Shown: piece after piece, positions 4,739-56,690 of the stretch
How positions within the stretch are numbered: the stretch's first letter is position 1
How the letters are laid out: each line of letters begins with the position of its first letter
From: Crambe crambe
Lineage: Eukaryota > Porifera > Demospongiae > Poecilosclerida > Crambeidae
Reading direction: 5' to 3'
Length of the DNA stretch: 64,000 bases
Assembly: GCA_963924555.1 (NCBI GenBank)
Contig: OZ004581.1
Coordinates: forward strand, 6,859,338 to 6,923,337
Program-made: the position numbers and the translations under genes
The notes under the pieces: generated by a model
Told to the model about the DNA's origin: nothing
The model's database searches: none
The model's input: only the letters and a program-made list of their open reading frames with translations

Positions 4739-5160
4739 TAACTATCCTTCTTGCACTTTTATTAGCCATTGTTCACTAGTTTTTGTCATTAAATTTTAGC
4801 TAGCTATCTTCTTTGGCTATACATTAATTATGTTTTCCTCCTAGTAATCATTACTTGTTAGCTTTTGGAGAAGAGTTTGTAGCTACATACAAAAAGATGG
4901 CTATTGAGTTGAGATCAGCTGGTGTCTGCATAGCTAGCTATAGTCCTTGAGTAGTTCATTGCATGCAGAATCTCGTAGAATAAATTTCTATGATCATCTC
5001 ATTCAACATCGATATTTATTTTTGGGCGTGGCTAGGCAAAAGTGGGCACAGTTAGGCCAAAAATGCAAGCATGAAATCTATAGCTACGCCCCTAGCTGTT
5101 TATCACTTAATTTGACTTGCGACAACTCTACAAATAATTTTACTGTGGTCCCTATTATTA
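4739..5160. repeat. 3' flank of GPCR copy 1, duplicated
   Basis: Non-coding, and paralogous to 17713-18037, 23847-24240 and the inverted 18440-18578. The three aligned copies differ by whole tetranucleotides. A TAGCTAGCTA run at 4797-4806 is TAGCTA at 17842-17847 and plain TA at 23930-23931. The G run at 4690-4694 (5 G) is 13 G at 17717-17729. Confidence 0.75.
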
Positions 5161-5170
5161 TAATTATAAG

Positions 5171-5429
5171 CGCAAAAAATTTCTTCTAAATAAAAAGTTA
5201 GCTAAGTAGGATAGCCTAAAATCTAACTGGGCTGTATAAATTATAATGTACTGCAGCATTGTATGAAAACAATCCCTACATTTACCATTCACTACCTATA
5301 GCTAGCTATGGGCCATTGTAAAAGTAGGGATTGTTTTCATACGATGCTGCAGTACATTATAATTTATACAGCCCAGTTAGATTTTAGGCTATCCCTACTT
5401 AACTTTTTATTTAGAAGAAATTTTTTGCG
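5171..5429. repeat. Palindrome of element E2
   Basis: Arms of about 115 bases pair across a short centre containing a TAGCTAGCTA run. The outer ends read (A)CGCAAAAAATTTCTTC and its complement. The left arm has GTTAGCTAAG at 5198-5206 where the right arm implies GTTAAG. The arm therefore gained TAGC after the palindrome formed. Confidence 0.8.
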
Positions 5430-5950
5430 TTTACTTGTTTCTATCCTTTTTTTAGTGCTTGAAGTTGAAAGTAAGTTCGTGTAAGTAAAGAATTGAGGAT
5501 GGCAGTATTGATCGTCACTTGAACTAAGAGTACGCAGTGATTATTAATATTTGACATGAGGCTACAGTACAGTACTATAGTCTACATAAATCTATTTTTT
5601 TCTTTTGTAGGCACATGCACATAGCTACACAGTCTCTGGAAGAATTTATTTAGCTATATAGCTATTTAAGTTTTGTCTATTATAAAGAATAAATTAATAG
5701 CTAGCTAAACGATTAAACTGAAGACCTAGCTTATAGGACTTATACGTGGCCCCGCCCATACGCTCCGCCCCCTACCGACGTGCGCTTCAAAATGGCGTAG
5801 AAAGATTAGCCGAGTGCTATCATAGGTGCTATGATTTGTGAAGTAGCGATTTAGTCAAAACTAATAGCCTCTAGGTGCCGCTCTAACAGATGGCCAAAGC
5901 AGAATTTTGATGACTATAGCCAGTAAGTCGGTAGGTTGATCTGAGCTGAA

Positions 5951-6135
5951 TGTGATGTATGTATCCACTGCCAGAGAGCCAAGATCTGCCGACACTCTGT
6001 CACACCAGCCTCAACCTTCACACCACCGATTGCTAGGTTCATTCATATCGACTTGGTGGGACCATTGCCACCCTCTAGAGGGCTAGGGCAGACCTACCTG
6101 CTTACCTGCATAGACAGATTCACCAGGTTGCTCAT
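5951..6135 (+). pseudogene. Ty3/gypsy retrotransposon integrase fragment
   Basis: An open frame following a stop at 5942 reads through a cysteine pair of the HHCC zinc finger (CIHCQRAK), then the start of the integrase catalytic core, with HIDLVGPLPPS and TYLLTCIDRFTR. These phrases are typical of gypsy-type pol polyproteins, where integrase joins the cDNA to host DNA; the D of HIDLVG is the first catalytic aspartate. Only about 60 residues remain. There is no reverse transcriptase, LTR or second catalytic residue nearby. The fragment stops where it runs antisense into the end of the STPR-like ORF, so it is a dead scrap inside element E2. Confidence 0.8.
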
Positions 6136-6145
6136 TCTCTGCAGC

Positions 6146-7138
6146 CTAGCCTGTCTCTCCTCGGCTGTCTCTGAAGATGACCTCTGACCTCTCACTTCTA
6201 TTCTGTCTCAACCTATCAAGCCTGGCTTGTCTCTCCTCAGATGTCTCTAAGGATAAACTCTGACTTGCACTGTCTCTAATATGCTCAAGTCTAGTCTGTC
6301 TTTCCTCAGTTATCTCTGAAGATAATCTCTGGTTTGTATTCTCTCTTAGGATTTGGAGCCTGACATCTCTTTCCTCACTTGTTTCTGAAGATAATCTCTG
6401 GTCTGCATTCTCTCTCAGGATTTGGAGTCTGGCCTCTCTTTCCTCAGCTGTCTCTGAAGATAATCTCTGGTCTGCATTCTCTCTCAGGATTTGGAGCCTG
6501 GCCTCTCTTTCCTCAGTTGTCTCTGAAGATAATCTCCCGTCTGCATTCTCTCTCAGGATTTGGAGCCTGGCCTCTCTTTCCTCAGTTGTCTCTGAAGATA
6601 ATCTCCCGTCTGCATTCTCTCTCAGGATTTGGAGCCTGGCCTCTCTTTCCTCAGTTGTCTCTGAAGATAATCTCCCGTCTGCATTCTCTCTCAGGATTTG
6701 GAGCCTGGCCTCTCTTTCCTCAGTTGTCTCTGAAGATAATCTCCCGTCTGCATTCTCTCTCAGGATTTGGAGCCTGGCCTCTCTTTCCTCAGTTGTCTCT
6801 GAAGATAATCTCCCGTCTGCATTCTCTCTCAGGATTTGGAGCCTGGCCTCTCTTTCCTCAGTTGTCTCTGAAGACAATCTCCTGTCTGCATTCTCTCTCA
6901 GGATTTGGAGCCTTGCTTCTCTTTCCTCAGCTGTCTCTGACATCAACCTCTGACTTGCACTCTCCCTCAAGCGCTCTAACGTAGCCTGTCTTTTCTCTGT
7001 GCTTTGAGCAGCACGTCTTGCCTTTATCTCGTACTCTTCGCTTTCTGAGTCTTTCTTCTTTCTGTTCAGCGGTCTCGGAAGCACGCTGAGCTCCCTCTCC
7101 CTTCTACGTCTGAGTTTGTCGGCTTTAACTTGATTCAT
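6146..7138 (-). CDS. STPR-like protein with twelve 23-residue repeats
   Basis: A 330-residue ORF on the minus strand. The N-terminus is strongly basic (KLRRRRERE, NRKKK), suggesting nuclear entry. From residue 44 come twelve tandem 23-residue units of the type SETTEEREARLQILRENA followed by DGRLS, ending near residue 319. The 23-residue period and charged helical pattern match the STPR (score-and-three peptide repeat) DNA-binding module known from silkworm FMBP-1; similar repeats also occur, from memory, at the front of some transposon proteins. Five central units are almost identical at DNA level (69-bp period, about 6470-6840). Near the 3' end the repeat pattern continues in another frame (SSSETAEERQAR, about 6140-6180). 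The last 11 residues are therefore probably a frameshift product. It may be transposon cargo and no longer functional. Confidence 0.6.
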   Translation of the reverse strand: MNQVKADKLRRRRERELSVLPRPLNRKKKDSESEEYEIKARRAAQSTEKRQATLERLRESASQRLMSETAEEREARLQILRENADRRLSSETTEEREARLQILRENADGRLSSETTEEREARLQILRENADGRLSSETTEEREARLQILRENADGRLSSETTEEREARLQILRENADGRLSSETTEEREARLQILRENADGRLSSETTEEREARLQILRENADQRLSSETAEEREARLQILRENADQRLSSETSEERDVRLQILRENTNQRLSSEITEERQTRLEHIRDSASQSLSLETSEERQARLDRLRQNRSERSEVIFRDSRGETG

Positions 7139-7265
7139 TCTTTAGTAGCTAGTTAGCAAACAATAATTTCTAGTGAACAAACAAGATTGAACCGGTCATT
7201 GGGCGCGCATGTGCAAGGACATACCCGATGGTCGCAAAGAATGAAAACCACGTTAATAGAACGTA

Positions 7266-7268
<3 letters not shown>

Positions 7269-7318
<50 letters not shown>
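7269..7318. repeat. (TA)n microsatellite
   Basis: About 25 uninterrupted TA units lie between the STPR-like ORF start and the resumed E2 tail, inside the foreign cargo of element E2. Confidence 0.95.
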
Positions 7319-7325
<7 letters not shown>

Positions 7326-7593: not shown

Positions 7594-7760
7594 CGATAAT
7601 CCCCATGCCAGTCCAATGTGTCTGGCAGTTTGATCCAAACAAGGACCTGTCATGCACAGCTGCTACTACCTGTACCTGAGACATGTCAGAGGAGACACCA
7701 GCAAGAATCAAAGACATAAATTTTTACGCATGCGCCCTAATCACCTGTCACCTGTGTAGG
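7594..7760. repeat. Duplicated flank shared with 24239-24400 and (inverted) 18190-18385
   Basis: A non-coding block starting CCCCATGCCAGTCCAATG. The other two copies lie downstream of GPCR copies 3 and 4. It marks the right border of the E2 insertion and shows that this DNA belongs to the GPCR segmental duplication. Confidence 0.75.
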
Positions 7761-7867
7761 AGCGATATGGGGCCCCCCGGCCGTATAGAAATGGGGCCCC
7801 CAGGGGGCCTCATAGCGCTAGTATTTTGGGGCTCCCCCAGTGAAATAGGGCCCACGCACGCGTGCTG

Positions 7868-8856: not shown

Positions 8857-8889
<33 letters not shown>
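8822..8889. repeat. Adjacent poly-G and poly-C tracts
   Basis: A G-rich tract is followed within 10 bases by more than 30 C. The pair could fold into a G:C hairpin, or into a quadruplex on one strand and an i-motif on the other. Tract length is unlikely to be exact in an assembly. Confidence 0.9.
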
Positions 8890-17712: not shown

Positions 17713-18037
17713 CAAAGGGGGGGGGGGGGTAACTACCAATACTCATCTAATATCTACTGTACGTATGTGCTTATAACTATCCTTCTTGCACTTTTATCAG
17801 CCATTTTTTATTAATTTTATCTAGCTTTTGTTATTAAATTTTAGCTATCTTCTTTGGCTATACATTAGTTATGTTTTCCTTCTATTAATTATTACTTGTT
17901 TGTTGTGTCTCTGAGAAGCTTTTGGAGAAGAGTTTGTAGCTACATCCAAAAAGATGGCTATTGAAATGACTTGACTTGAGATCAGCTGGTGTCTGCATAG
18001 CTAGCTATAGTCCTTGAGTAGTTCATTGCAGAATCTC
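17713..18037. repeat. 3' flank of GPCR copy 3
   Basis: Non-coding and paralogous to 4739-4970. A G13 run at 17717-17729 replaces G5 of copy 1. TAGCTA at 17842-17847 is intermediate between the two-unit and zero-unit states of the other copies. Confidence 0.7.
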
Positions 18038-18601
18038 GGGGGGGGGGGGGGGGGGGGAGAAATCCCAGGTTTTCGCGACCTCTGTATTAATCCCTGCTAG
18101 GATACTAGCTATAGCCATTTTTTCCGGCATTGGGTCTTTGCCTAGCAAAAGTCTTTACTTGAAAGCACTATTTATTTTTGTAACAATGATGAGATAGGTG
18201 ACAGATGATTAGGGTGCATGCGTACAAATTTATGTCTTTGATTCCTGGAAGTGAGCTTTAGCTATATTCTTGCTGGTGTCTCCTCTGACATGTCTCCGGT
18301 ACAGGTAGCTAGTAGCAGCTGTGCATGACAGGTCCTTGTTTGGATCAAACTTCCAGACACATTGGACTGGCATGGGGATTAGCTATAGCTATAGCTATAA
18401 TAGGGACTAGTAAAATTATTTGTAGAGTTGTTGCAAGTCAAATTAAGTGATAAACAGCTATAGGGGCGTAGCTATAGATTTCATGCTTACATTTTTGGCC
18501 TAACTATACCACTTTTGCCTAGCCATGCCCAAAAATAAATATCGATGTTGAATGAGATGATCATAGAAATTTATTCTACCCCCCCCCCCCCCCCCCCCCC
18601 C
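18038..18601. repeat. Inverted segment bounded by G20 and C23
   Basis: G20 (18038-18057) and C23 (18579-18601) enclose about 520 bases. These read as the reverse complement of the downstream flanks of copies 1 and 4; compare 4975-5115 and 24120-24500. Outside the tracts, collinearity with copy 4 resumes near 18770. This is an inversion within the duplicated unit with homopolymers at both breakpoints. Confidence 0.75.
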
Positions 18602-20545
18602 TCACTAAAGTTTACTTCAAAAAGTTCAGGGCCTTCAATGCTTCAAGATTGGCAAGCACAAAATTACAGTATAGATAATAAGCTCCTAACACAGATCTGA
18701 TATTCAGCATACATGTTGTTCATACAATTTCTCCCCCCTCAAGCAAAAAATCCTGTATCAATCCCTACCTAGTAGAGTTCAAATCCTCACCAATTGGAGT
18801 GCCACTTCATTTGCCCTCTCAGTAAAAATTGGCTAGCTATCTGCTAGCTACTTGCCATATTGGACAACTGATCATGATATGAAAATTAATGAATGGAGTC
18901 ATGCTGCAGTCCTGAATAATTACGCATATCGACACTGCCAGGGAATGATTCATTAATTTATGTTCCAGATTTAATAGCAAGGTGCACATGACACAGGAAA
19001 CAGATGTCACAGTGACATGCACACACCCCTCAGTTATTGTTACCCCGCTCGCGCATGCGCAGCAAGGGGTAAAGCAATCGATCGTGGTACGGCCAAAATT
19101 TTTGAAAGACTAATCGACGCTCTATCGCGATGGCAGAAGACTTACCTCTCAATATAGTTCCACAACAGTGCTTTCATTGCTAATTACAGAAATCACAAGT
19201 TCTAATTAAACGTATGTAATTCGCTCCGTACCTACTACAAAATACTCTGCAGCTATGTACAGGCCAGGCACTGCTTATTTGCACTGCAGATGTTTATCCG
19301 ATCCCCCCCCCCCCATACTCTCCTCCTATCCTTAGTAGCCTACTGTATTGCACTGCATCTTTCAAGGTGGTCATACTCTCCTCTCTCAAGCAAAACATTC
19401 TCAGCTATAGGCTAAAATGAAAATGAAGACAAATTCATCGCAAAATACCCTGAAATTTTATTAAATGAATTGTCATAGCTAGCTAATTACAAAGAAAAAG
19501 AATGGAAACAAGTGAGTGCAAAAAATTTCTTCTATGTTAAGTAGGAATGGCCCCAGAATTTAGCTGGGCTATGACTGCAGCATCATATCAAACCAAGCCG
19601 TGTGGCCCCAAAACCTATGGTAGCCATGGATTATACGTATATGACTGCAGAATCATATCAAACCAAGCCAAAATCCAGCTATTATGTACGCGGCTCTGAC
19701 TGCAACAGATTAGCTATGTAGCTAACTAGCTATCTATTCTGGTCAGATGGCCACTCCTCATAGCTAGATGCTCATTCTACATGGTTAGTCAGCTCACTTC
19801 ACCATGCCAGCTAGTGTGTGCGCCTCCAACCTGTGAACTTTGATGCATGAATTTCAGTTAGTAATGCTATAATAAAATGCATGTAAGTTTACCTGAAATT
19901 CTTCAGTATTAGCTATCAGTAAAAATACTGAGGAATTGGTTGGAGGCTCTGCCATGCCATGCAGATGTCATTTACATTGTTTGATTTTGTTAATAATCTT
20001 CGATCACCAGTGCTATGTACCTACAAAGAGGAAGATAAGAAATAGATTAAAAAGGTTGTTATGAATTTCTCATTATAAAGAAAAAGAATAGTTTATACAG
20101 TCTTATGACCTTTGACCTACTTATGGTTGACAACACGTATTCAGCTGCAAAATAATTATTAAGAAGTCAATAATCTACGCAGGAAATTGCTACACTAAGA
20201 TAAAACTAGTGACAAGACAGTAACTTTTTTTTCTTTTTTCTATGTTAGCTAATACATGCAGGGGATGGAAGGAGTGCCAAGGGGATATTATGCCTGACTG
20301 GCTATGCCATTATGCCATTTATATACTAAATTTCAGCTGTCATAAAGCCTACCATCCAATACGATACTTTTGTATCCAGATACATGGATACTTTGTATCT
20401 GGATACAAAAATCTCCAGTGTGGATGTTGAAGAGTATATCTTGTGGATACTTTCAGGATACATGTAGCTATCCAGAGAGTAGAATGAGGCTCTATTTTTG
20501 GCAACATGTAGCTATTCACAAAATCAAAGGGATTAATGTGACCCT
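18602..20545. other. Intergenic; duplicated flank then unique DNA
   Basis: 18770-19030 matches 24540-24830. 19497-19690 holds a degraded piece of the E-element front (ACAAGTGAGTGCAAAAAATT), and 20095-20125 a scrap of its tail. A C10 run lies near 19304. I see no gene. Confidence 0.5.
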
Positions 20546-20566
20546 GGGGGGGGGGGGGGGGGGGGG
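20546..20566 (+). repeat. Poly-G tract (21 G)
   Basis: An uninterrupted G run at the edge of a dispersed repeat whose inverted relative is at 9064-9235. Confidence 0.95.
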
Positions 20567-20666
20567 TTTATATTTTCAGGGCCAGATCCAGGCTTTTTGG
20601 ATAGGTGGGGTTGCAGGACTATAGGATCACAAACACTGGGCTATTGGGGGGAGGGGATGTGGTTGT

Positions 20667-22452: not shown

Positions 22453-23846
22453 ATGAGCAATAACATAAGTATAACTCGCTTTTGCTTCAATGCCAGTGAA
22501 GATGTTCTCACCGATGAAATGTGGCACCTTGAAGAGACACATGAAACAAGCAAATTCGTGCTCGCCTTCTTCTTCATACTCATCTGTGTCATTGGATTGC
22601 CATGGAACTTGATGGTGATTGTGACTGTAGTCAAAGAGAAACTTTACAAGGATCCTTCCATTGTGCTCCTCCTGAATTTAGTGGTTAGTGATCTTTTTAC
22701 GTTGCTGTTCGTGTTACCACTTTATATAGCAGTGGGATTAGCTCAAGGATATAGCTATCATCGGAAATAATGACTTACAGAGGTGCAAAATCTGTAAACT
22801 TGGAATCTTAGAAGTCATTTTCCCGATCACATTAGTTTATGCCATGGCATTACTATCTTTCGATCGATTCATCTATTTTTACAAACCAGTGAAGTACAAC
22901 AGCATCATCACGATACCAAGGCTGCTTTTAGTCATCTCAATGATATGGGTATCAGCAATTGTGATCGCAGCAATGCCATTTTATGATGTCAATATGATAC
23001 AAATAGCCTTTTATCGCACGATTGCAGCATGCACTGTAGCCAGCCTTCCAGCAAGTATAAATATATTCAACTTGGTTCATTTTACAGCCATTAGCCTTCC
23101 CATAATTGTGCTAATAGTGTGCAATGTGTGGATGATATGTATAGTGCAGAAGACGATCCGAGATGTGTACAATGTGAAGAAATTTGGAAACAATGAGGGT
23201 AGGGATTTTCTTGAAAAAATGAAACAGATACGTCGAAAGAAGCAATTCAAACTCCTCAGAGTTTTCGGAGGAATATTTTTGTGCTCTGCACTATCATTCC
23301 TGCCAGCAGCTGTACTTTTGTTTCTCCTTATCTCTGAAGAAGCAGAGAAAGTTCCTATTGGTTTTCAAGCCAGTACATTTGTTTCATTCTATGCACAGAC
23401 TGCCATTCACCCTATACTGGAATCTACGACGTTAAAGAACCACTGAAGAAGAAACTTTGCTTTTGCTGTTCAAAGGTGTCTCAAGGCAATGACTGTAATT
23501 GCTCGTGTCTTGTTGAGAGCGACCACTGTTGCACAGACTTCTGTGGGAAGTTAAAGGTCTTTCATGCAATATCAGCCGAGATTCCAGCTGAAAGAGATGA
23601 TGATGATGATGATAATGATGCTCCAGCTGCCATTAAGGTAGAACCTTATGCAGAAAACAGCAAGAGACATTGTTCAGTTGGAGTGGAAATTAACAATCAA
23701 AATCATTCTAATGAAGATCACTTAACCATCAAGCTCACAGCTAGTTCTAGTCTCACTAGCAATGCTACTTCGGAATGTCATGCACAAAATAACAGGAACC
23801 ATTGTTCTGTTGGAGTGGGGGAAAACCCTCTAAATAATTATTAATT
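22453..23846 (+). pseudogene. Class A GPCR, copy 4, broken
   Basis: A paralogue of the receptors at 2873 and 15895 with three lesions. A 4-bp TAGC gain (TAGCTA at 22752-22757, where the intact copies have TA) shifts the frame after TM2. A 10-bp deletion after 23427 restores the frame (net -6). The 3' part is missing: after 23840 the sequence jumps to the downstream flank, removing about 450 bp of the tail seen in copy 3, and ends at TAA. The middle 225 codons remain well conserved in the shifted frame, so inactivation appears recent. The acidic tract is DDDDDND. A truncated product of about 105 residues is all the first frame could give. Confidence 0.9.
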
Positions 23847-24830
23847 GAGTCACTCACCTAATACATATCTACTGCATGTGCTGATATGTAACTATGCACT
23901 TTTATATCAGACATTAATTTTATGTCATTTATTTTCTTTGGCTATACATTAATTATGTTTTCCTTTTATGTAGCTAATCATTAGCTACTTGTTAGCTATG
24001 TCTCTGAGATCTTTACACAAAAAAAAAGCAGTTTGTATATCCATTGAGTTGGTTGCATGACATGAGTTGAAATCAGCTGGTGACTGCATAGCGAGTAGTT
24101 CATTGCAGAATCTTATAAAATAGATTTTTATGTTCAAATATCAATAATTATTTTTGGGCGTGGCCAGGCAAGCGCTACGCCCCTATTTGTTATATCACAC
24201 TTAATTTCACTTGCGACCACTCTACAAATAATTTTACTAGTTCCCATTATAATCTTCATGCCAGTCCAATGTGTCTGGCAGTTCGAAGGACCTGTCATGC
24301 ACAGCAGCTACCTGTTAGCTACCTGCAACATGTCAGAAGAGATACCAGCTAGTATAGCTAAAGCACACTTGCAGGAATAAAAGATAATTTTTATGCATGC
24401 ACTTGATGGTGAACATGTACTAGCTACATGAATAATTTAAAGGTTTAGTTACTAATCACCTGTTATCTGTCTCATCATTGTCACATTGACAAAGACCCAA
24501 TGCCGGAAAATAATGGCTATACGTACGTACATCCTAGTAGAGTTCAACTCCTCACCAATTGAAGTGCCACTTCATTTGCTCTCTAAGTAAAGTTGGCTAT
24601 CTGCTACTTGCCATATTGGACAACTGATCATGATATGAAATGTTAAATGGAGGTGAAAGGTCATGCAGTAATTTTATGTTTCAGATTACTTATAGCTACA
24701 CTATACATGACCATGTGCATCTCAGAGCAGAACTTGAAGTTTGAGAGCCACTAATAGCAACTGCCAAGGTGCATATAACACAGAAAACAGATGTCACATT
24801 GACCTCCACAGCCCTCAGTTATTGTTTATA
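23847..24830. repeat. Segmental duplication D3, 3' flank
   Basis: Non-coding, collinear with the flank of GPCR copy 1 and, with one inversion, that of copy 3. It has no E element, so it gives an empty site for E2. TAGCTA at 23971-23976 and 23982-23987 stand where copy 1 has TA (4845-4846, 4852-4853). Confidence 0.75.
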
Positions 24831-27773: not shown

Positions 27774-30692
27774 CTCCAAAGTGTGGGAAACAAGGTTTAG
27801 GATTGTGCACATGCCAGTTGTGCAGAAATATAAACAGATTAGCTATAGCTAGCTGCAAACATGATAGAAGAAAATTTCATTTGCTACAGTAAAAGAATGA
27901 CACACAGGCATGCTTAAAGTAAAATCCTACTTGGTTAACTTGGACTATATTTCCTGAACTCGAACTCACATCTTGTTTTGTTGCAGACTATTTGGGAAGA
28001 CCTTTCATACAAGGATCTAATGGAATGATATTAATAAATTTAGCCGTTATAGCTTAGAGCTACATAATGCTAACCTGGAACTGTATGAATGAAATACTTT
28101 AGAGACATCTTTGTGTCCAATTTTGGTTGGTCTAATCGTAATCATCCTTGTGGTAGGTTTGATATTATTGCAGAGTTTCTTGATATGGATGTTTGCTATA
28201 ATATTATTATTGATATCATAATATCAGTAACAACTATGACCAAAGGGATAATAAAGTGGTTAGAACAAGAAGTCAAAACAATGATTATTACGGATAATTA
28301 TAGTGAGTCATTAAACTATGAACAACACAATAATTATCCAAACTAATTCACCTATCCAGCAGCTTGGAAAAAAATTTGGCCAAAGGTGTCTGAGTAACCG
28401 AGGTTCCACTGTGAATTTATGTGCAGCTGCTTGTAAGATATAGCTATAGACTGCTTGGGGGGAGTATCCTGACTATCCAGCAGACTTCAATAGGCTAGCT
28501 ATCTCTATATACCTGTTTCCTTATCTTTATCTTTAAAAGGACCAAGAATTATCCAATCTATAGTTTCACCATTCATTTCTTCAGAGATAAGGTCGTCACT
28601 CTGTAATAAGGATAGATGGCCAAGATCTATAAGAGGTTATTCAAGACTGATGACTAGCTTAATCCTAGGATCCTGCAGGTATAAGTTTTGCACATTCTCA
28701 TAGATATTGTTGTTCATCAGCAGAAGCTTCACAAGCTTTTTACATCATATCTGTAAGCAGTTTTTTATCAACCCTAATAGCAAGCTACATATATTTTCTT
28801 ATGGAGTTATGTAATGTTTTGCCACTGATGCTAGTCTAGAAATTTCAATTTACCCTGTCCATTGAATAACCTCTATAGCTATAAGTCACGGTCTTGCTGA
28901 AATATGCAGATCAGGTGGGAGGGAATAAACTATTACACCTATAGTCACCTAGTTAAATATGGAGCCAACCTTTTTGATGTTCTCTTCATCTTGACTATAA
29001 ATATCTTCAGCAAGATTAATGATAGACAATTTATTGCCATGATATTTCTTTTTCTTAGTAATACTCCCATAGTGTGGATGGAAGTTCACAGATACTATCT
29101 GTATAATAATCATTGCCATAATAATAAGACGAGGGAGGTGACTATTAAGTTTGCTTGGCCTAACAAACCTTTTCAAATGTAAGTGCAAACTGCACACCTC
29201 TTCTGATAGCTCCAAATGAAATAACATGAGCAAGCTTGACTGGAGTTTCATCACCTAATATGTCATTTTGGATGACTTCATCACAAATGTCACCATACTC
29301 CTGCATTTCAAAGAGTAATAGTTAGTAGTGAAGATTTAATTAATATCTGGACAAATTAATCCTAGCTAGGTAATAAAAGTTTCGGTAAATGTTCCCACTT
29401 GATTATTAGCCTTGGCTGTGCACAATGACATTATTAGTTTCCATGCACCAAGGCACCCAGTTAGCTATTTAAAGGTCAGTTATAGGTCAAGTGTTCCAAG
29501 TTGTCAGAGTTACACACCATTTTATCTTTTTTGTCTATATTTTTATCTTGCCTGCCTCACCTTGTTAAGGATGCAGGAATGTAAACGCTCTTTTCTTTCA
29601 CGAAACAGGTAATCCAGCTTTTTACAGACCTGAACATCTTTAAACACACGACCATGACCAGTATCTGTGCAAAACAATTTCAATAGTAAGAAATCGAGGT
29701 CATCTTTAATGCAAGGAGAAAACAGTTGGAAACGCTTGAATACATGGTCTTCTGGAGAGAGAAAAGACATAAATGAGAATTTTGCAACATCTTGATGGCC
29801 CAGAGCATTTCGGTGGCATTTGAAGCACATGGCCAATCCATAGAGAACTGTTATCAGTGCAAAAATGAGCAGAATATAGTCCATCACTTGGATTTTACTC
29901 AATATTCGAAAAGGAGGGTAAGTGCATTCAACAGAAAAGGAATATGGCCATCCAGTAATGGTCACGTTCAAATCATTAAAATTACTTGGACATTCAAAGA
30001 CAACAGTGAAGTCTGATATCTTGAATACCACAATATTAACAGATAAACTACCAGCTATGATAATCAACTGAATAACTAGTTTCAGTATGTACTTTATGAA
30101 TACGCTGAGTTTTCTCAACTCTTTAAATTCCTTTTCCAATTTCTTGATGATAGCAAAGTTGATGGGGCGATAGTCACCAGTACTACCATCTCGTAGTCTA
30201 TCAAGCTGCTTCACAAGACCAACAAAGAAGTTAAAACGACCAGTAGCTATAGTTAACCTTCCACATAAAGTGAGGAACTGCTATCATAGTGCCTTGAAGG
30301 AGGAGGAAAACAGCGTAATATTCATTCCAACTTAAGCTATTATGACAAAATGTATCCACATAAGCATTCTGATCTCGAGTTGCTTCAAATATGGTTGGGA
30401 GGAAGCATTTCAAACCATATGTTGATGTTAAGAGTTCCAGGGACAAGTCAAGGAATGTCAGTATCCCAATGGCTGATCCAATGTAGAGCAGAAATTTATC
30501 CCAAGAAAACTCCTTCAATTCACTATATGTTTCGCCTTTCTTTGCCTCCTCATTTTCCTTCACTGTCAGATTGCTCTGTGCTACTACTTCAGTAATAATC
30601 TCAGTCATTTTTAGCTAATCAGTTTGAATTCTGGAGTAGCTAGTTATGGCTAGTAGCTAAAGTGCACCACACAAATATCTCTAGGAAGTATA
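27774..30692. repeat. Inverted duplication, arm A
   Basis: A ~2.9 kb arm matching the reverse strand of 52092-55196, covering the whole pannexin-like gene and its short promoter flank. Small indels distinguish the arms; TAGC-rich runs such as the one near 27840-27860 are present here and absent from arm B. Confidence 0.85.
28513..30608 (-). pseudogene. Pannexin/innexin/LRRC8-like four-TM channel gene, copy A
   Basis: Exon 1 (29561-30608) encodes TM1 (about residues 38-60), a first outer loop with C68 and C88, and TM2 preceded by WNEYYAVFLLLQ and ending VPHFMWK. This recalls the innexin YYQW...P..LWK signature. TM3 follows, then a second outer loop with two cysteines (FECPSN ... VECTYPP), TM4, and a cytoplasmic region with DDLDFLLLKLF, as in pannexin/LRRC8. 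Further exons fit with phase-0 GT-AG junctions at 29169-29300 and 28970-29098, and probably 28513-28600. The frame is broken only by TAGCTA at 30244-30249, where copy B has TA. If that is a sequencing error, the gene is intact. Large-pore channel function is inferred from family resemblance. Confidence 0.7.
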
Positions 30693-37056: not shown

Positions 37057-38828
37057 GTAAACCAGTCAACCAATATCTTGCTGCCTACTACCAGATCCTT
37101 AAAACACGTGGTTCTTTGGATATGATCTTTCTTAAAATGGTCTTTGTTGGTTCTCCTCGTTTGGGAAAGACAAGTGCTCTTCGCCGTCTCACAGGAGAGA
37201 TTGTTGATATCAGCTCAGCTGGAGAACCAGAGCAGCCAAGCACAGGGACAGTGGAGTCAGGACCAACAGTTGTCCTCAGAAACTTGACCAGCACCACAGT
37301 AATGACTCCATCAGAATGGCTTGCCACCAAAAACCTCACAGAAGAGGCAAGCATACTTCTAAGAGTTCATTTACGGTCACTCTCGTCAGCTAAGTGAAGA
37401 TGATGAAGTAGCTATCAAGCGTCAGTAATGCTTCCATTCCCTAAGACTAAGACAGATTTAGACCAAAATGTAAATTCCTCCTCTTCTGCTCCATTCTCAA
37501 ATAGTGATGGTGACTCACCTGATTCAATCCTCATTTCTTCATCACCAAAACAGTGTTAAATCTCAAGGTATGGGTATGGAAATTGCCAACTTATTTCATA
37601 AGGTTATGGATTCAAAATACTGGAAGGATATCAAGCATTTATTCAAATATACAGCTCTCATAAGAATGGAAGACACGGGAGGCCAGCCAGAATTCATGGA
37701 CATGCTCCCGGCTCTGACTATCGGTCCTGCCCTCTACCTGTTATTCTGTACGGTCCACAGATTTCTTCCACAAAGATTTCGTTCAGTTTTCATCTGATAA
37801 TAGGATGGTGCTCCCCATTGATATTATGACAGGAGGAATGGAAGAAATTAAGAACATACGAAAGTTGCTGACTGAAAATATTTCAAGAAGTTGTCTATTC
37901 CAGCTGCATGGTTAATACTGAGCAACAGAGCTGAGAGAATAATCAGCCTGCACGATTGCCTTCAACTTGCTGAACACCATGGTATGGCATCAGATGAATT
38001 GAAAGTGGCCTTATGGTTTCTCCATAACTATGCTGGGGTCCTAATGTACTTCCCAGACTTGCCTGGACTTCCCAGACTTGCCTGGACTCAAGGACACTGT
38101 CATCTGTGATATGCAGATCATGTATGACAGTGTTATTAATCTGTCAACACATTTAGATTTGGTCCACTCAGCAAAGCAAATGCTGAAAAGTTTCGAGAGA
38201 CAGGACAATTCTCATTGGAGGAGATCAAAGGAGCAACTGCCAGTATCTCTGGAAACAACATTCCACTAGGCCTACGTACTTGTGAAGCTACTGGAATACC
38301 TCAATATCATAGCTCCTCTGGCAAAACCTGATCAAAAAATTGTCTACTTCTTCAGAATGCTGCAAATGAAGAGCTTCTTATTTGCCAAGAGAACGACTCC
38401 AATTCACTCCTCCCAGCTTCTTTGATGATTCGATACAAGTGTGGCTTTGTACCCCTTGGTCTCTTTCCTGCCACCATTGCTAATCTAGTCCAGTTTCAAT
38501 TTGGAGCTGATCATGATAAGGTCACCTTCATATCTTGACCACACTACTATGAGATCCACATCACACGACAAGCAGCTGCTGTCACCAAAACACATGAAGT
38601 GTGTGGTGCAGTTCGAGAAATCATCGAGTCAGCAATCAAGACAGTTACGTACTTCTATGCCTTCACTGTCAGCTATCAGTTTGCATTTGAATGTCCATCT
38701 CACCCTGGGAGGGACCACCTGTGTGTGTTGACAGCAGAGAGACCTATCCCCGCTTGATGGACTGTCTATTCGATCTCAAAGACCCTGAACCAGTAAAAAT
38801 GCAAAGTCAGCACTTAGTGTGGTTTAAG
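37057..38828 (+). pseudogene. Roc GTPase and COR-like exon, frameshifted
   Basis: Walker A reads GSPRLGKTS (about 37147-37173). The G3 motif DTGGQPEF (about 37673-37696) is typical of Roc domains. In broken frames follow FFHKDFVQFS, IPAAWLILSN, then LQLAEHHGMASDELKVALWFLHNYAGVLMYFP split over frames, with DTVICDMQIMYDSV and FRETGQFSLEEI. The end reads FAFECPSHPG and QSQHLVWFK before a GTATAA donor. These COR-like phrases recur, from memory, in sponge and cnidarian ROCO-type proteins. At least five frame changes are needed to read through. Confidence 0.75.
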
Positions 38829-40058: not shown

Positions 40059-40507
40059 ACAAGTGAATGCAAAAAATTTCTTCGAAATAAAAATGTGAAG
40101 TAGGGATGTTATTATAACTGCAGCTTCATTATGAAAACCAAGTACTGCAGCATCGAAGCAGTATGGCCCAAAAATCTAGCAGGAATATGTATTATAACTG
40201 CATGCAAGAGAGTGAACTTAGTGAAGTGACCCTTACCCATCATCAAGTACGAGATACTATTCCTACTTCACTCCATTGGCCCTTGATCATGGGAGTGAAG
40301 TAGGAATAGTATCTTGTACTTGATGATGGGTAAGGGTCACTTCACTAAGTTCACTCTCTTGCATGCAGTTATAATACATATTCCTGCTAGATTTTTGGGC
40401 CATACTGCTTCGATGCTGCAGTACTTGGTTTTCATAATGAAGCTGCAGTTATAATAACATCCCTACTTCACATTTTTATTTCGAAGAAATTTTTTGCATT
40501 CACTTGT
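40059..40507. mobile_element. 449-bp near-perfect palindrome (foldback element)
   Basis: Two 216-base arms (40059-40274 and 40292-40507) are separated by 17 bases. I find a single mismatch between the arms (GTACGAGATAC against a complement reading GTACAAGATAC). The outer ends ACAAGTGAATGCAAAAAATT are the E-family front. It also contains the AAGTAGGGATG word and an E-type CTATTCCTACTTCACTCC block. Near-identity of the arms implies very recent formation. Confidence 0.9.
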
Positions 40508-42062: not shown

Positions 42063-42998
42063 ACAAGTGAGCGTAAAAAATTTCTTCTAAATAAAAAGGT
42101 TAAGTAGGGATAGCCTAAAATCTAGCTGGGCTATAATAATGTACTGCAGCCTCATATGAAAACAATCCCTACATCTACATCCACTACCTATAGCTAGCTA
42201 TGGCAGTTGTAAAAGTAGGGATTGTTTTCATATGAGGCTGCAGTACATTATTATAGCCCAGCTAGATTTTAGGCTATCCCTACTTAACCTTTTTATTTAG
42301 AAGAAATTTTTTACGCTCACTTGTTTCCATCCTTTTTTCTTATTGCTTGAAGTTGAATGTAAGTTTGTGTATGTAAAGAATTGAATGGCAGTAGTGACCG
42401 TCACTTCAACTGAGACACTACAGCCAAGTACTGGCTATAATACTACTATAAGATGAGCATCTGTACTGTAATTCAGCAAGGAGTGACTGGAACATCATCA
42501 GATAAGAATAAAATTAGCTACCTAAACGATTAAACTGAGAAGCTTACGTGGCTCCGCCCATAAGCCCCGCCCCCTACCGACGTGCGCTTCAAAATGGCGT
42601 CGAAAGATTGGCTAGTGTTCCGAGTGCTCGAATAGTGAAGTAGAGCCTTAGTCAAAACTAATAGCAAAAGATCAGCCTCTAGGTGCCGCTCTAACAGATG
42701 GCCAAAGCAGAATTTTGATGACTATAGCCAGTAAGCCGGTACGTCGATCTTATATTTATTATCCTTATTATTATTATTATTATTATTATTATAAAGAAAA
42801 AGAACAAAAGTCAATTTTAGACATCGTTTTTTTCTTATGTTAGCGAATGAATTTTTGGTTTTGGAACATTCTCCTCTCTTCTTTGTAGATGTAATAATTC
42901 ACTGTAGCCTTCTGAGAACCTGTAGAGCAAGGGTAGAAGAGAAAGAAGAGTTTTTAGTTCATACAGTCTTATGACCTTTGACCCGCCATCCCTACTTA
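42063..42998 (+). mobile_element. Composite E element, copy E4
   Basis: A full palindrome (42063-42324, ends ACAAGTGAGCG...CGCTCACTTGT) followed by the usual tail. The terminal hairpin is missing: after CCCTACTTA the sequence passes directly into E5. 42167-42998 shows no difference from 43089-43920. Confidence 0.8.
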
Positions 42999-43010: not shown

Positions 43011-43943
43011 CAGTAAAAAGGTTAAGTAGGGATAATACAACCCTACAATTATGATATATGTTACATTATGATATATGTTACAATTGTTCCCTACATCTAC
43101 ATCCACTACCTATAGCTAGCTATGGCAGTTGTAAAAGTAGGGATTGTTTTCATATGAGGCTGCAGTACATTATTATAGCCCAGCTAGATTTTAGGCTATC
43201 CCTACTTAACCTTTTTATTTAGAAGAAATTTTTTACGCTCACTTGTTTCCATCCTTTTTTCTTATTGCTTGAAGTTGAATGTAAGTTTGTGTATGTAAAG
43301 AATTGAATGGCAGTAGTGACCGTCACTTCAACTGAGACACTACAGCCAAGTACTGGCTATAATACTACTATAAGATGAGCATCTGTACTGTAATTCAGCA
43401 AGGAGTGACTGGAACATCATCAGATAAGAATAAAATTAGCTACCTAAACGATTAAACTGAGAAGCTTACGTGGCTCCGCCCATAAGCCCCGCCCCCTACC
43501 GACGTGCGCTTCAAAATGGCGTCGAAAGATTGGCTAGTGTTCCGAGTGCTCGAATAGTGAAGTAGAGCCTTAGTCAAAACTAATAGCAAAAGATCAGCCT
43601 CTAGGTGCCGCTCTAACAGATGGCCAAAGCAGAATTTTGATGACTATAGCCAGTAAGCCGGTACGTCGATCTTATATTTATTATCCTTATTATTATTATT
43701 ATTATTATTATTATAAAGAAAAAGAACAAAAGTCAATTTTAGACATCGTTTTTTTCTTATGTTAGCGAATGAATTTTTGGTTTTGGAACATTCTCCTCTC
43801 TTCTTTGTAGATGTAATAATTCACTGTAGCCTTCTGAGAACCTGTAGAGCAAGGGTAGAAGAGAAAGAAGAGTTTTTAGTTCATACAGTCTTATGACCTT
43901 TGACCCGCCATCCCTACTTAGAGAGTGCTAGCGCACTCTCTGA
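43011..43943 (+). mobile_element. Composite E element, copy E5, tandem to E4
   Basis: Shares 832 bases with E4 at an offset of 922, with no difference seen by eye. Its left palindrome arm is replaced by a short divergent stretch containing a 17-base direct repeat (ATGATATATGTTACA type, 43050-43085). It ends in hairpin AGAGAGTGC/TAGC/GCACTCTCT (43920-43941), GA, then T. Confidence 0.8.
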
Positions 43944-44137: not shown

Positions 44138-44442
44138 GCTCTTGCAGTCCCCCAACCATGATGGACATCATCTGCTTCCCTTTGCAAGACTCTAAAGTGG
44201 ACTTGACTAAAGAAGTGGGAACAAAGTACTTTCAGTTCGGGATTCTCCTCCTGGAAGACCAGACTGGAGCACATATCAGTGCCCTTGAAAGAGAACTGAT
44301 GAAGAATGCACAAGACATCAATTATCGAGTGTTTCAAGAATGGCTGCATGGGAAAGGGAGACGACCTGTGTCCTGGGAGACTCTGATTTCTGTGGAAGAT
44401 ATTGGATTGATAAATCTATTAGTGATGCCAAACTGTAGATAG
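44138..44442 (+). pseudogene. Death-domain exon, copy 1
   Basis: Follows an AATGCAG acceptor in phase 1 and reads SPPTMMDIICFPLQDSK, then FQFGILLLEDQTGAHISAL, then FQEWLHGKGRRPVSWETLIS. This is the death-domain pattern of hydrophobic helices, followed by a W...L. helix 5 and the usual DIGL turn. The last helix is lost: compared with 56640-56690, about 14 bases after GATATTGGATT are missing, giving an early TAG. It is probably the 3' end of a ROCO-type or other adaptor gene. Confidence 0.6.

Positions 44443-45078: not shown

Positions 45079-45113
<35 letters not shown>
44443..45113. repeat. Duplicated region shared with 56700-57800, ending in C35
   Basis: Blocks such as CGCGCATGCGCATT, the GGAACCATCTATGGGCAAGAAA segment and CCCTTTACCCACTCTATCC recur downstream of the second death-domain exon. 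A C35 homopolymer lies at 45079-45113. The ORFs over this tract are artefacts. Confidence 0.7.
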
Positions 45114-51083: not shown

Positions 51084-51092
51084 GATGTAATG

Positions 51093-52091
51093 GATGATGA
51101 CATTCAGGCAACAGAAGATTACAAGAAGAATATAAATTATCAAAAGTTGGGTAAAAATCTGCACATGCGTAGTTGGCTGAAACCAGGCTCTCTTTTTCCT
51201 TCCCCCTCCCCTTTTTGCAGAGAGAGCCTGGGGATGAGGCTGAACTAATTCTATCGAAGCCTCTATCATTGTTCAGAACCACATCTTATTCAACTCTGGG
51301 GGGGGGGGGGGGGGGCATTCTACCCCCTCCCCTGAACATAATTTTGCCATGTTTTGATTTGCCCCCCTAAATTATTTTTTTTTGGAAAAAACCTGAACTC
51401 TGATAAGAGGGCATTCATTATTTTGATACAGGAGTGAGACACATCACCTTATAATTACTACTACACTATAATTATTATATTGGAACAAAGAAAATTTGGA
51501 GACTCTTGACACTGACCACAATGAGTGGAAAGGGTAAGCTTTTGCTTCTGGGTTGACTTGTGCTAGGTGAAGCAAAGAAGAACTCGTAGTGAGTCAACTA
51601 TTTGCATGCATGTGAGGTTCAGAGGTTATATTCCTGATGTGTGACCTTTAGGCACTCTTTCACAATGACATATATCTCCATCCCCACTTGGACACCCATA
51701 CAGACTAATTAAAGTACTCTACAGTACTGAATAAGAGCCAAGGGAGAACACTTCTTAATGTCATGAGGACTTTCGTGTGTTTATGTAGGAATTCCTGTGA
51801 GAGCTGGTTCTAATTCCATTCCTGGAATCACTGCTGTATAAATGTGACCCATACTGGATCCTACAATGTCATCTCATTGAATCTCTAGGATGATGTAAAT
51901 AACCATTCAGGACAATAACACCTCACAACTAGCTTTTAGCCATCATGCACCAGTAAAGTTGATTCTATGAATACTTTACAGTGAATTTTGTTACAGATGG
52001 ACAGGATATTGATGAAATGAGGGGTGGGGCTAGAATGATGGCATTACTGCTAATCAACTACACTAATCATACTACTATTATAGCAATATAT
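51093..52091. other. Intergenic with G18 tract and repeat ends
   Basis: G18 at 51298-51315 in a repeat with TTTGCCCCCCTAAATT-type borders. A small AGGCTCTC...GAGAGCCTGGGG repeat lies near 51184-51233. No gene. Confidence 0.5.
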
Positions 52092-52147
52092 ATATTTGTG
52101 TGGTGCACTTTAGCTAGTCTCTCACTATAACAACTGCTTAGCTAAAA

Positions 52148-53981
52148 ATGACTGAGATTGTTACTGAAGTATTGGCACAGAGCAATCCGACATTAAAGGG
52201 AAGTGAGGAAGCAAAGGAGACAAAAGCAGGTGAAACATAATAGTGAATTGAAAGAGTTTTCTTGGGATAAATTTCTGCTCTACATTGGATCAGCCATTGG
52301 GATACTGACATTCCTTGACTTGTCCCTGGAACTCTTAACATCAACATATGGTTTGAAATGCTTCCTCCCAACCATATTTGAAGCAACTCGAGATCAGAAT
52401 GCTTATGTGAATACATTTTGTCATAATAGCTTAACTTGGAATGAATATTACGCTGTTTTCCTCCTCCTTCAAGGCACTATGATAGCAGTTCCTCACTTTA
52501 TGTGGAAGGTTAACTATACTGGTCGTTTTAACTTCTTTGTTGGTCTTGTGAAGCAGCTTGATAGACTACGAGATGGTAGTACTGGTGACTATCGCCCCAT
52601 CAACTTTGCTATCATCAAGAAGTTGGAAAAGGAATTTGAAGAGTTGAGAAAACTCAGCATATTCACAAAGTACATACTGAAACTAGTTATTCAGTTGATT
52701 ATCATAGCTGGTAGTTTATCTGTTAATATTGTGGTATTCAAGATATCTGACTTCACTGTTGTCTTTGAATGTCCAAGTAATTTTAATGATTTGAACGTGA
52801 CCATTACTGGATGGCCATATTCCTTTTCTGTTGAATGCACTTACCCACCTTTTCGACTATTGAGTAAAATTGAAGTGATGGACTATATTCTGCTCATTTT
52901 TGCACTGATAACAGTTCTCTATGGATTGGCCATGTGCTTCAAATGCCACCGAAATGCTCTGGGCCATCAAGATGTTGCAAAATTCTCATTTATGTCTTTT
53001 CTCTCTCCAGAAGACCATGTATTCAAGCGTTTCCAACTGTTTTCTCCTTGCATTAAAGACGACCTCGATTTCTTACTATTGAAATTGTTTTGCACAGATA
53101 CTGGTCACGGTCGTGTGTTTAAAGATGTTCAGGTCTGTAAAAAACTGGATTACCTGTTTTGTGAAAGAAAAGACAAAAAAGATAAAAAGGTGTGTAACTC
53201 TGACAACTTGGAACACTTGACCTATAACTGACCTTTAAATAGCTAACTGGGTGCCTTGGTGCATGGAAACTAATAATGTCATTGTGCACAGCCAAGGCTA
53301 ATAATCAAGTGGGAACATTCTATAGCTACCGAAACTTTTATTACCTAGCTAGGATTAATTTGTCCAGATATTAATTAAATCTTCACTACTAACTATTACT
53401 CTTTGAAATGCAGGAGCATGGTGACAGTTGTGATGAAGAGTACATATGTAATAAAACTCCAGTCAAGCTTCCTCATGTTATTTCATATGGAGCTATCAAA
53501 AGAGCTAAATCTGAAAAGGTTTGTTAGGCCAAACAAACTTAATAGTCACCTCCCTCGTCTTATTATTATGGCAATGATTATTATACAGATAGTATCTGTG
53601 AACTTCCATCCACACTAAATCTTCACTACTAACTATTACTCTTTGAAATGCAGGAGCATGGTGACATTTGTGATGAAGTCATCAAAGAATACATACATAA
53701 TAAAACTCCAGTCAAGCTTGCTCATGTTATTTCATTTGGAGCTATCAGAAGAGGTGTGCAGTTTGCACCTAAATTTGAAAAGGTTTGTTAGGCCAAACAA
53801 ACTTAATAGTCACCTCCCTCGTCTTATTATTATGGCAATGATTATTATACAGATAGTATCTGTGAACTTCCATCCACACTATGGGGGTATTACTAAGAAA
53901 AAGAAATATCATGGCAATAAATTGTCGATCATTAATCTTGCTGAAGATATTTATAGTCAAGATGAAGAGAACATCAAAAAG
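52148..53981 (+). pseudogene. Pannexin/innexin/LRRC8-like four-TM channel gene, copy B
   Basis: The same protein as copy A. The start ATG at 52148 opens a frame that meets TAA at 52238-52240, because one A was gained (ACATAATAG against ACATATAG in copy A). From 52203 the frame is open to 53231 and covers all four TM segments and both cysteine pairs, and it has TA where copy A has TAGCTA. Compared with copy A, about 53 bases holding the exon 1 donor site are deleted near 53170. Exon 2 is present twice (53414-53518 and 53654-53782) and exon 3 is at 53853-53981. Copies A and B are thus broken at different places, and neither is intact as written. Confidence 0.7.
53380..53860 (+). repeat. 240-bp tandem duplication of exon 2
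   Basis: GGAGCATGGTGACA occurs at 53413 and 53653, and the unit includes acceptor, exon 2, the short intron and the first bases of exon 3. The first unit has lost residues around the VQF segment. This is an exon-duplication intermediate within arm B only. Confidence 0.85.
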
Positions 53982-53999
53982 GTTGGCTCCATATTTAAC

Positions 54000-56186
54000 T
54001 AGGTGACTATAGGTGTAATAGTTAATTCCCTCCCACCTGATCTGCATATTTCAGCAAGACCGTGACTTATAGCTATAGAGGTTATTCAATGGGCAGGGTA
54101 AATTGAAATTTCTAGACTAGCATCAGTGGCAAAACATTACATAACTCCATAAGAAAATATATGTAGCTTGCTATTAGGGTTGATAAAAAACTGCTTACAG
54201 ATATGATGTAAAAAGCTTGTGAAGCTTCTGCTGATGAACAACAATATCTATAAGAATGTGCAAAACTTATACCTGCAGGATCCTAGGATTAAGCTAGTCA
54301 TCAGTCTTGAATAACCTCTTATAGATCTTGGCCATCTATCCTTATTACAGAGTGACGACCTTATCTCTGAAGAAATGAATGGTGAAACTATAGATTGGAT
54401 AATTCTTGGTCCTTTTAAAGATAAAGATAAGGAAACAGGTATATAGAGATAGCTAGCCTATTGAAGTCTGCTGGATAGTCAGGATAGTCAGTAATATTAG
54501 TTCCTCTCCCCCCAAGCAGTCTATAGCTATGTCTTACAAGCAGCTGCTGTGGAAAATCACATTGTGTAAATTCACAGTGGAACCTTGGTTACTCAGACGC
54601 CTTTGGCCAAATTTTTCCCCCCAAGCTGCTGGATAGGTGAATTAGTTTGGATAATTGTGTTGTTCATAGTTTAATGACTCACTATAATTATCCCATCATA
54701 ATATGTAATTGTTTTGACTTCCTAACCACTTTATTATCCCTTTGGTCATAGTTGTTACTGATATTATGATAATCAATATCAATATAGTAAACATCCATAT
54801 CAAGAAACTCCGCACTTTGAATAATATCAAATCTACCACAAGGATGATTACGATCAGACCAACCAAAATTGGACACAAAGATGTCTCTAAAGTATTTCAT
54901 TCATACAGTTCCAGGTTAGCATGTAGCTCTTAGCTATAATAGCTAAATATTTATTAATATCATTCCATTAGATCCTCGCATGAAAAAAGGTCATCCAAAA
55001 TAGTCTGCAATAAAACAAGATGTGAGTTCGAGCTCAGGGAATATACTGATCTAAGTTAACCAAGTAGCTAGGATTTTACTTTATGCATGCATGCCTTCTT
55101 TAGCAAATGAAATTTTCTTTTGTCATATTTGCTGATCTATTTTTATTTCTGCACAACGGGCATGTGCACAATCCTAAACCTTATTTCCCACACAAGAAAC
55201 ACTTTGACATAATTAGGAGATAATTACAAGTAAGCTGTAGAATTTACTGATAATGAAATAGTTAATCACACAAAAATTGTACTGCTAGTGAATGCCAGGT
55301 ATTAGACTCGTTCCCAGGTCTATTTTAGGTCTGCTATACTATATCTCTAGGTAGCTAGGTACTTGGTTTATGTTTGAGCACGTTAGCGTGGCCAAAGCCA
55401 AGGAGGGTCTCTATAGTTCTGTTCATCAACATCATCAATGACAGCTAATAGCTAGTTGTAGCTAGCTAGCTCATTCTTGAACCTGGAGGAAAGTAAGAAG
55501 CTTGGAACTACGTGAAGGAGATGATATGCTAAAGGTGTGGTTGGAACAGCCTCCTCTCACTTAGGCAGCCATCATCAAAGTGCTGGAGTGGAGAATTGGT
55601 CTTCACTCAACTTTGCTACCTCCAATAGGGGGAGGGGCTGATTATAAGGTGGGCGTTTATTCAAAGTAGTTTTGTGTTTATACGAAATTTCCAGGGTGTA
55701 ACAAGCACCTCCTTGTGGTCAGTTTTAATCACTAGTATTTTTTGGTTGTGGTATGAACATCACATGTTGATTGATTGACATAACAAAATATAACACTGAG
55801 ACTCTATTTCGTCGGCACCATCATGCTTGGTGTAGACATCATGATATGAATGAACTCTAGGAATATATACACTTTCTGTAACAACTGATCTCTTTGGTCC
55901 AAGGATGTATCTCTGTGTATTGCTGTATAGCTAGATACTAATGAGCCCATAGCAAAGCAAGAGTCAGGTGTTGATTGCTTACAAGATGTGATTGGAGAAT
56001 GGCTGGCTGGCCAATGCTCCCCAAATGCCCCACTGCAAATGCTACTCAGAGAAATGAAGAGGCTTATACAACTTGCTGAAGGATGGTTGGCAGGAAAATT
56101 CGCAGCATAAATGTTCCATCTGTGGTGAAGGTGTGTATCTACTAGCATTTTATGCTATAACTAGTACCACTACATTTTACATACAG
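54000..56186. other. 3' part of arm B, then intergenic
   Basis: 54000-55196 parallels the 3' exons and introns of copy A, including the SDDLISEEMNGE exon at about 54350-54437. A conserved antisense frame (54688-54900, matching 28089 onward) is of unclear status. 55200-56186 holds no firm gene, although a frame around 55985-56110 (EWLAGQCSPN ... EGWLAGKFAA) could be a decayed exon. Confidence 0.45.
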
Positions 56187-56690
56187 ATTCAGAAGTACTG
56201 CAGTCATCTACATCACTATCCAGCCATGCATCTCCTCCAACTGCTCCTGCATTGCATACTTCACAATCAGAAGGTAAGTTCAACCTTGCCTAATAGCACA
56301 GCTACTTTTGCTATTCTGAAAGTTGCTTGTAGGAAGTGGTAGCCCTTATCTTGCATTTTGTGACATTAATAGTTCCTTGTCTTCTTCAAGTTCCACAGTG
56401 TCTTGCCCTCCTCCAACCATGATGGACATCCTGTGTTTCCCCTTACAAGACTCTAAAGTGAACTTGGCTCGAGAGATTGGGATTTGAATTTGGAACATTA
56501 GCTACTTCTCGAGGATGAAACTGGTGCCCATATCAGTGCCCTAGAACTCCAACTTCATATGAATGTTCAAAGTATCAACTGCCGTATTTTTCGAGTGGGG
56601 GTGGGAGACAACCTGTGTCCTGGGAGACTCTGATTTCTGTCTGGAAGATATTGGATTAGACCAACTTGCTATATCTATTAGAGATGCGAA
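56187..56690 (+). pseudogene. Linker plus death-domain exons, copy 2
   Basis: The linker exon 56187-56273 (SEVLQSSTSLSSHASPP..., phase 1 on both sides, GTAAGT donor) is followed by an exon from 56399 reading SCPPPTMMDILCFPLQDSK. It is paralogous to 41908-42006 and 44138-44442. The death domain is broken by a small deletion near 56482 (giving TGA) and by TAGCTA at 56499-56504. Removing that TAGC restores FGTLLLEDETGAHISAL. A further frame break lies near 56600. The last helix (DQLAISIRDA) survives here but not in copy 1. Confidence 0.65.

Follow-up and report, generated by a model that had tools for sequence, protein, structure and literature searches.

TAGCTA in the genome of the sponge Crambe crambe: probable excision scars of GC-ended, pogo-like transposons

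In the genome of the sponge Crambe crambe, the word TAGCTA is several times more common than expected. We propose that most of this excess consists of scars left by the excision of DNA transposons that insert at TA and have GC at their ends, chiefly of the pogo-like (DDE_1) group, and we consider this explanation probable. A first-pass annotation of a 64,000-nucleotide stretch of contig C1 (OZ004581.1, positions 6859338-6923337; hereafter, the window) had noticed places where TA in one copy of a sequence is TAGCTA or TACGTA in another, and had read the longer form as an excision scar. All of the words that it named lie where it placed them, and its reading is supported: it is well supported for TAGCTA and tentative for TACGTA.

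All of our comparisons are based on a single assembly (143 Mb, 119 contigs). For local statistics, we used a 264-kb stretch comprising the window and 100 kb on either side; the window begins at stretch coordinate 100001. Coordinates below are window positions unless they are described as stretch coordinates or as positions in the contig.

TAGCTA and TACGTA are over-represented

We compared word counts in the 264-kb stretch to an order-2 model. After merging complements, there are ten classes of TAxyTA words, the best eight of which were listed. TAGCTA was observed 838 times and expected 134 times (6.3-fold), and TACGTA was observed 192 times and expected 32 times (6.0-fold). The remaining eight classes were enriched by 2.4-fold at most: AT (TAATTA) was at 2.4-fold, and AC/GT and CA/TG were at about 1.4-fold. 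Across the whole genome, TAGCTA is found 225,395 times in 143 Mb, or 1.57 times per kb. Also, in 52 kb of sequence from 16 loci that were picked for matches to transposases or repeats (15 of them on other contigs), there were 76 instances of TAGCTA, vs. 21.7 expected.

Scars with three added nucleotides give a different picture. The words expected from GC-type ends (TAGCGTA and TACGCTA together) were not enriched, with 11 observed vs. 15.5 expected. TACAGTA/TACTGTA, which is the 3-nucleotide scar predicted for CAG-ended Tc1-like elements, was observed 117 times vs. 63 expected (1.9-fold).

Four-base-pair differences between paralogs

The first-pass annotation had suggested tabulating the indels between duplicated segments. 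We compared the 264-kb stretch to itself and considered matches of at least 150 bp and at least 80% identity, excluding close tandem overlaps. For a strict count, we required eight identical bases on each side of the indel, with flanks of 20 bases that are at least 85% identical, and we counted each event once. This left 178 clean indels, 22 of which were 4 bp. The TAGC class (including rotations) accounted for 14 of these 22, and 13 of the 14 were exactly TA vs. TAGCTA (counted by hand); the sole exception is at stretch coordinate 222952. TAGC-class 4-mers account for 2.6% of all sequence, which gives a binomial P of about 1.6e-17 for 14 of 22, or 4e-8 if their share were fivefold higher. None of the 22 belonged to the TACG class. 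In a looser count (pairs of at least 500 bp with at most 16% divergence, excluding self-overlapping or doubly covered pairs), there were 15 TAGC and 3 TACG indels among 42 indels of 4 bp. These results confirm that the four-letter differences at TA are real and more frequent than chance.

In five cases, the direction of change can be read from a third copy, and all five are gains (stretch coordinates 62741, 122754, 188438, 246847, and 229544; for 62741 and 188438, the TA itself also reads differently in the third copy). In one further case, two copies have TAGC and one does not; the direction of the other cases is undecided.

Pogo-like transposons with GC ends

If TAGCTA is an excision scar, then its source should be a TA-targeting element with GC...GC ends, as the first-pass annotation predicted. 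Such a family exists. The genome has at least 150 matches to DDE_1 (pogo-like) and at least 151 to DDE_3 (Tc1-like) transposases, including many open frames and several sets of matches with equal scores. Among the matches listed, one pogo-like family has seven matches with equal scores, spread over five contigs; six of the seven matches lie in 829-amino-acid (aa) open frames and one in a 673-aa open frame. The 829-aa frames contain the DDE_1 domain (PF03184, E 2.0e-21). When we scanned a 148-aa N-terminal piece and a 246-aa C-terminal piece, the N-terminal piece matched a Psq-type helix-turn-helix (HTH_psq, E 3.2e-9) instead of CENP-B_N or HTH_Tnp_Tc5.

The borders of this element were set by two copies on C1, which match each other inward from contig positions 7024010/7027276 and 7183676/7186942 but not beyond (the two end stretches that we compared are 99.7 and 100% identical). 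The element is 3,263 bp between its TAs, has borders TA|GCGTAAGC...GCTTACGC|TA, and has terminal inverted repeats of TAGCGTAAGCNNNCTACTATCGAC at both ends. Both copies are inserted into repeats, which provides empty relatives for comparison. At one site, each of the 13 relatives that we fetched has just one TA at the junction, which shows that the target TA is duplicated upon insertion. At the other site, one of three relatives is clearly readable and it also has a single TA; the other two are too diverged. One of these two (L069) contains TAGCTA beside the junction, but it aligns there without extra length, so we did not count it as a scar. In the repeat around the first insertion site, two copies (L054 and L055) have TAGCTA where most carry TA.

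A second pogo-like family (758 aa) begins with TA|GCGTAGACC in both of the copies that we compared, and a motif search finds GCGTAGACC at both ends of several copies. Genome-wide, we counted 93 + 110 = 203 matches to the end motif that the two families share, vs. 6 + 12 = 18 for the reversed control. Among the matches listed (98 of 100), pairs of motifs within 8 kb of each other were arranged inward 31 times, outward 3 times, and never in the same orientation. Among the inward pairs listed, 13 copies are 830-844 bp long and another three are 3,265 bp (these lengths include one TA). The first-pass annotation had suspected a Tc1/mariner-type source; the element does insert at TA, but it looks pogo-like and is not Tc1/mariner in the narrow sense.

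Other candidates were less suitable. Among 14 loci with Tc1-like (DDE_3) transposases that we scanned, seven could be delimited: six had CAG at both ends and one had CCG and CAG. Because of these ends, the delimited Tc1-like elements could not make TAGCTA, and we rejected them as its source. A search for terminal inverted repeats in the 264-kb stretch found one convincing GC-ended candidate, with 207 bp between its TAs (stretch coordinates 20376-20586). It has one full copy and a few partial relatives in the genome, which is too rare for a main source, and it is possibly another GC-ended family. No abundant GC-ended family was at the top of the list of repeat boundaries from the 264-kb stretch. 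The mariner profile (PF01359) had no match in the genome, but it had none in 14 control genomes either, so this is uninformative as to absence.

On contig C11, at roughly 1.6-3.8 Mb, matches to DDE_1 and DDE_3 repeatedly occur together, with most of them on the minus strand and often 5-7 kb apart, every 40-120 kb or so. This looks like a megabase-scale tandem array that carries transposase remnants.

A proposed mechanism and its relatives

As shown above, insertion duplicates the target TA. Upon excision, the non-transferred strand would be cut 2 nucleotides inside the element, as we infer from related transposons, which would leave a 3' overhang of GC on each flank. Such a cut is indirectly suggested by the scar counts, in which the 2-nucleotide scar is enriched and the 3-nucleotide scar is not. 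The two overhangs could then anneal and be ligated to give TA-GC-TA. Since GC overhangs are self-complementary, unlike those of CAG-ended elements, a single scar (TAGCTA) is expected. The net gain of 4 bp shifts reading frames. Also, each scar leaves a second TA, so that repeated hits would grow chains such as TAGCTAGCTA. By the same logic, TACGTA would require CG-ended elements.

Mechanisms of this type are known; what is unusual is the number and the uniformity of the scars. The CA ends of Tc1 and Tc3 yield mismatched overhangs and hence two types of scars, which for Tc3 are TACATA and TATGTA. GC ends, in contrast, would pair perfectly and give one scar, and there are far more scars in C. 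crambe. Pogo elements usually carry CAG-type ends. The pogo superfamily (Passer, Tigger, pogoR) resembles the C. crambe elements in its DDE_1 transposase, its TA duplication, its inverted ends, and its shorter, presumably non-autonomous pairs, but the C. crambe elements end in GC. The Tc1-like (DDE_3) elements in the C. crambe genome are also flanked by TA and have many open-frame copies; they differ in having mostly CAG ends, and the matching 3-nucleotide scar shows just the 1.9-fold enrichment described above.

There are published precedents for such excision products. For Tc1 of Caenorhabditis elegans, which also targets TA, a gain of 4 bp is reported as the typical somatic scar (PMC13148408). 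For the pogo element Passer, excision in cells is reported to leave 0-4 bp (PMC9976928). Another parallel is ISY100, a bacterial member of the IS630-Tc1-mariner group: it is cut 2 nucleotides inside its 5' end, and the ends of the backbone are ligated to form the palindrome TATATA (PMC2170065). The single palindromic junction after a 2-nucleotide inside cut is what we propose for C. crambe. However, ISY100 is bacterial, has TA outermost, and was shown to do this in vitro, while the C. crambe elements have GC outermost and their cut is proposed by analogy. In listings and passages from the literature on scars of TA-inserting transposons, TAGCTA words, AGCT microsatellites, sponge transposons, pogo elements, and genome-wide scars, we found no description of such TAGCTA scars.

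Chains of proposed scars and alternative explanations

In the 264-kb stretch, there are 641 single GC units, 135 single CG units, 108 doubles, and 12 longer chains. The 108 doubles comprise 67 GC-GC, 30 mixed, and 11 CG-CG, where random pairing would give 71, 33, and 4. This nearly random mixture suggests separate hits on individual TAs instead of slippage, and it supports the idea from the first-pass annotation that arrays grow by repeated hits. Genome-wide, TAGCTACGTAGCTA is found at 283 places, vs. none for the reversed control, and four TAGC units followed by TA have 850 matches (counting overlaps), vs. 10 for the reversed control.

The mixture of GC and CG would also be compatible with end joining that does not involve transposons: breaks at TA would be filled in, two self-complementary strong nucleotides would be added, and the ends would be joined as TA-SS-TA (where S is G or C). 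The enrichment of self-complementary inserts as a class (GC, CG, and then AT) fits this idea, and so does our failure to find a CG-ended element with a CG variant of the end motif. But end joining does not predict that recently inserted, delimited pogo-like elements would end in GC, and we are not aware of any activity by which precisely GC or CG is added to breaks at TA. We consider it unlikely.

Slippage, in which TAGC arrays would gain or lose units like an ordinary microsatellite, could account for the longer arrays and for two-unit chains being threefold above a uniform expectation. But most of the gains are at a lone TA without any prior TAGC unit, so that slippage cannot explain the first unit, and it does not predict the near-random proportions of GC and CG within chains. 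It seems quite improbable. Slightly less probable still is that TAGCTA is ancestral and abundant for some other reason (for instance, as a binding site), with TAGC being deleted between TAs. TAGCTA is indeed common, and its two TAs could pair. However, all five of the polarized cases are gains, and the other TAxyTA words, which are jointly more common, are hardly present among the 22 clean 4-bp indels. Last, an artifact of sequencing or assembly is conceivable given that a single assembly was used, but it is very hard to reconcile with the 119 TAGCTA sites that are common to aligned paralogs (in 49 partly overlapping pairs), or with the abundance of TAGCTA genome-wide and its match to the ends of real elements.

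Difficulties with excision as the main source

Excision of GC-ended, pogo-like elements remains our favored explanation for TAGCTA, but several observations weigh against it. The first is a matter of numbers. The 203 end matches correspond to about 100 elements, while the genome-wide excess of TAGCTA is about 150,000 (225,395 minus the scaled expectation). This implies that excision has been frequent or long-lasting, or that there are further GC-ended families. Similarly, the recent rate of gain (15 for TAGC and 3 for TACG over 3,138 substitutions, again in 49 partly overlapping pairs) would lead to a steady state of about one-quarter of the local density. The density of TAGCTA around the window (3.2 per kb) is twice the genome average. 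And two-unit chains are about three times as common as hits at uniformly random positions would predict (108 vs. 36).

Other difficulties concern the elements. Among the four further pogo-like families that we compared, we saw TA|GC only in the 758-aa family: the border of the 614-aa family lacks TA, and the ends of the 652- and 797-aa families were not reached. No TA|GC...GC|TA insertions were seen among the large paralog insertions that were listed. Also, we found no locus with all three of the element, the scar, and the empty TA; filled and empty states were seen, and the scar state was not readable there. For TACGTA, the CG-ended variant of the motif gave 33 scattered matches vs. 564 for the reversed control, so the control is uninformative; the CG-ended alternative in the first-pass annotation has so far gained no support, and TACGTA is unexplained.

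Finally, TAGCTA appeared to share the target preference of Tc1-like elements (A at -3 and T at +3). This was mostly an artifact of chains, as the preference around TAGCTA was mostly lost after chains were removed; TACGTA retains part of it. The weak preference that is left neither helps nor hurts our explanation.

Proposed scars in the window and broken genes

Seven of the comparisons in the first-pass annotation are borne out by paralogs or by palindrome arms. The sites below are on the plus strand unless noted. Several are in or near a family of rhodopsin-type G-protein-coupled receptor (GPCR) genes. GPCR copy 4 has TAGCTA at 22752-22757 where copies 1 and 3 have TA, and a distant fourth copy (70% identity) is also shorter there. 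Measured from stop to stop, copies 1 and 3 have open frames of 623 and 611 aa, both with a 7tm_1 domain, while the frame of copy 4 is split. A 10-bp indel near 23428 also changes the frame of copy 4, which therefore has a second lesion besides the scar. In the 3' flanks, copy 1 has a double scar (TAGCTAGCTA at 4797-4806) and copy 3 has a single one (17842-17847). The first-pass annotation described a series of two, one, and zero units, but the copy with "zero" units, at 23930, has diverged too far for a clean comparison. The flank of copy 4 has TAGCTA at 23971-23976 and at 23982-23987 where copy 1 has TA, near 4845 and 4852, respectively; the sequences bear out both differences.

An inverted duplication (27781-30754 and 52019-55193, about 89-90% identity) contains a pair of genes that the first-pass annotation called pannexin-like. 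The name is a putative label, as none of the three pannexin-like open reading frames had a Pfam match at E <= 0.01. Alignment of the paralogs shows TAGCTA in copy A (30244-30249, minus strand) and the empty TA in the inverted copy B (52517-52518). Copy B is a single 344-aa frame and copy A is two overlapping frames. In both gene families, a proposed scar sits inside a broken copy, with the caveat of the second lesion in GPCR copy 4. The same duplication has a further TAGCTA at 55065-55070 where the other arm has TA, near 27930; its direction is undecided.

Two further sites lie in exons. The exon labeled as death-domain-like contains TAGCTA at 56499-56504, which had been recognized from the reading frame only. 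We found a paralog (44159-44289, 72% identity) that is 4 nucleotides shorter there, as counted on the unaligned strings, even though BLAST divided the gap. For the exon labeled as ROCO-like, the proposed TACGTA scar at 38273-38278 is consistent with the reading frame, and we found no paralog within the sequence that we compared.

A palindrome with arms within 5167-5433 has TAGCTA in the left arm (5199-5204) and TA in the right arm, as originally described. Two more differences are of undecided direction: TAGCTA at 18306-18311 is TA in the paralog at 7666 (two other copies differ), and TAGCTA at 18834-18839 is TA in the paralog at stretch coordinate 179994.

The window has other repeats as well. 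A direct repeat of 833 bp, whose two copies are 100% identical (42166-42998 and 43088-43920), adjoins copies of a foldback-type repeat, which is also found at 5169-5529. An inverted repeat at 40059-40507 has 216-bp arms that are 100% complementary and a 17-bp center. A 69-bp tandem repeat with 9.3 copies (6299-6940) lies within a minus-strand open frame of 331 aa. There are pure runs of 31 and 35 Cs (8859-8889 and 45079-45113). In the flanking sequence, a dispersed short hairpin repeat with sharp borders (TATCAGAGAGTGC..GCACTCTCT) is found at stretch coordinates 184308, 184539, and 184770.

Implications

A stronger proposal is that a single class of GC-ended transposons wrote on the order of 10^5 identical scars; that TACGTA records a second, CG-ended class; and that these scars are the leading 4-bp difference between paralogs and a source of arrays and pseudogenes. 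We lean toward this proposal, by a little over even chances. If it is correct, then scars could reveal the traffic of transposons even in places where elements are now few, and the end sequence of an element would alone decide whether its scars are uniform. It would account for a whole class of frameshifts, and it would be a route by which tetranucleotide arrays are born without slippage. It would also make it possible to measure how often a pogo-like element is excised in the germline, from the gains of TAGCTA between haplotypes.

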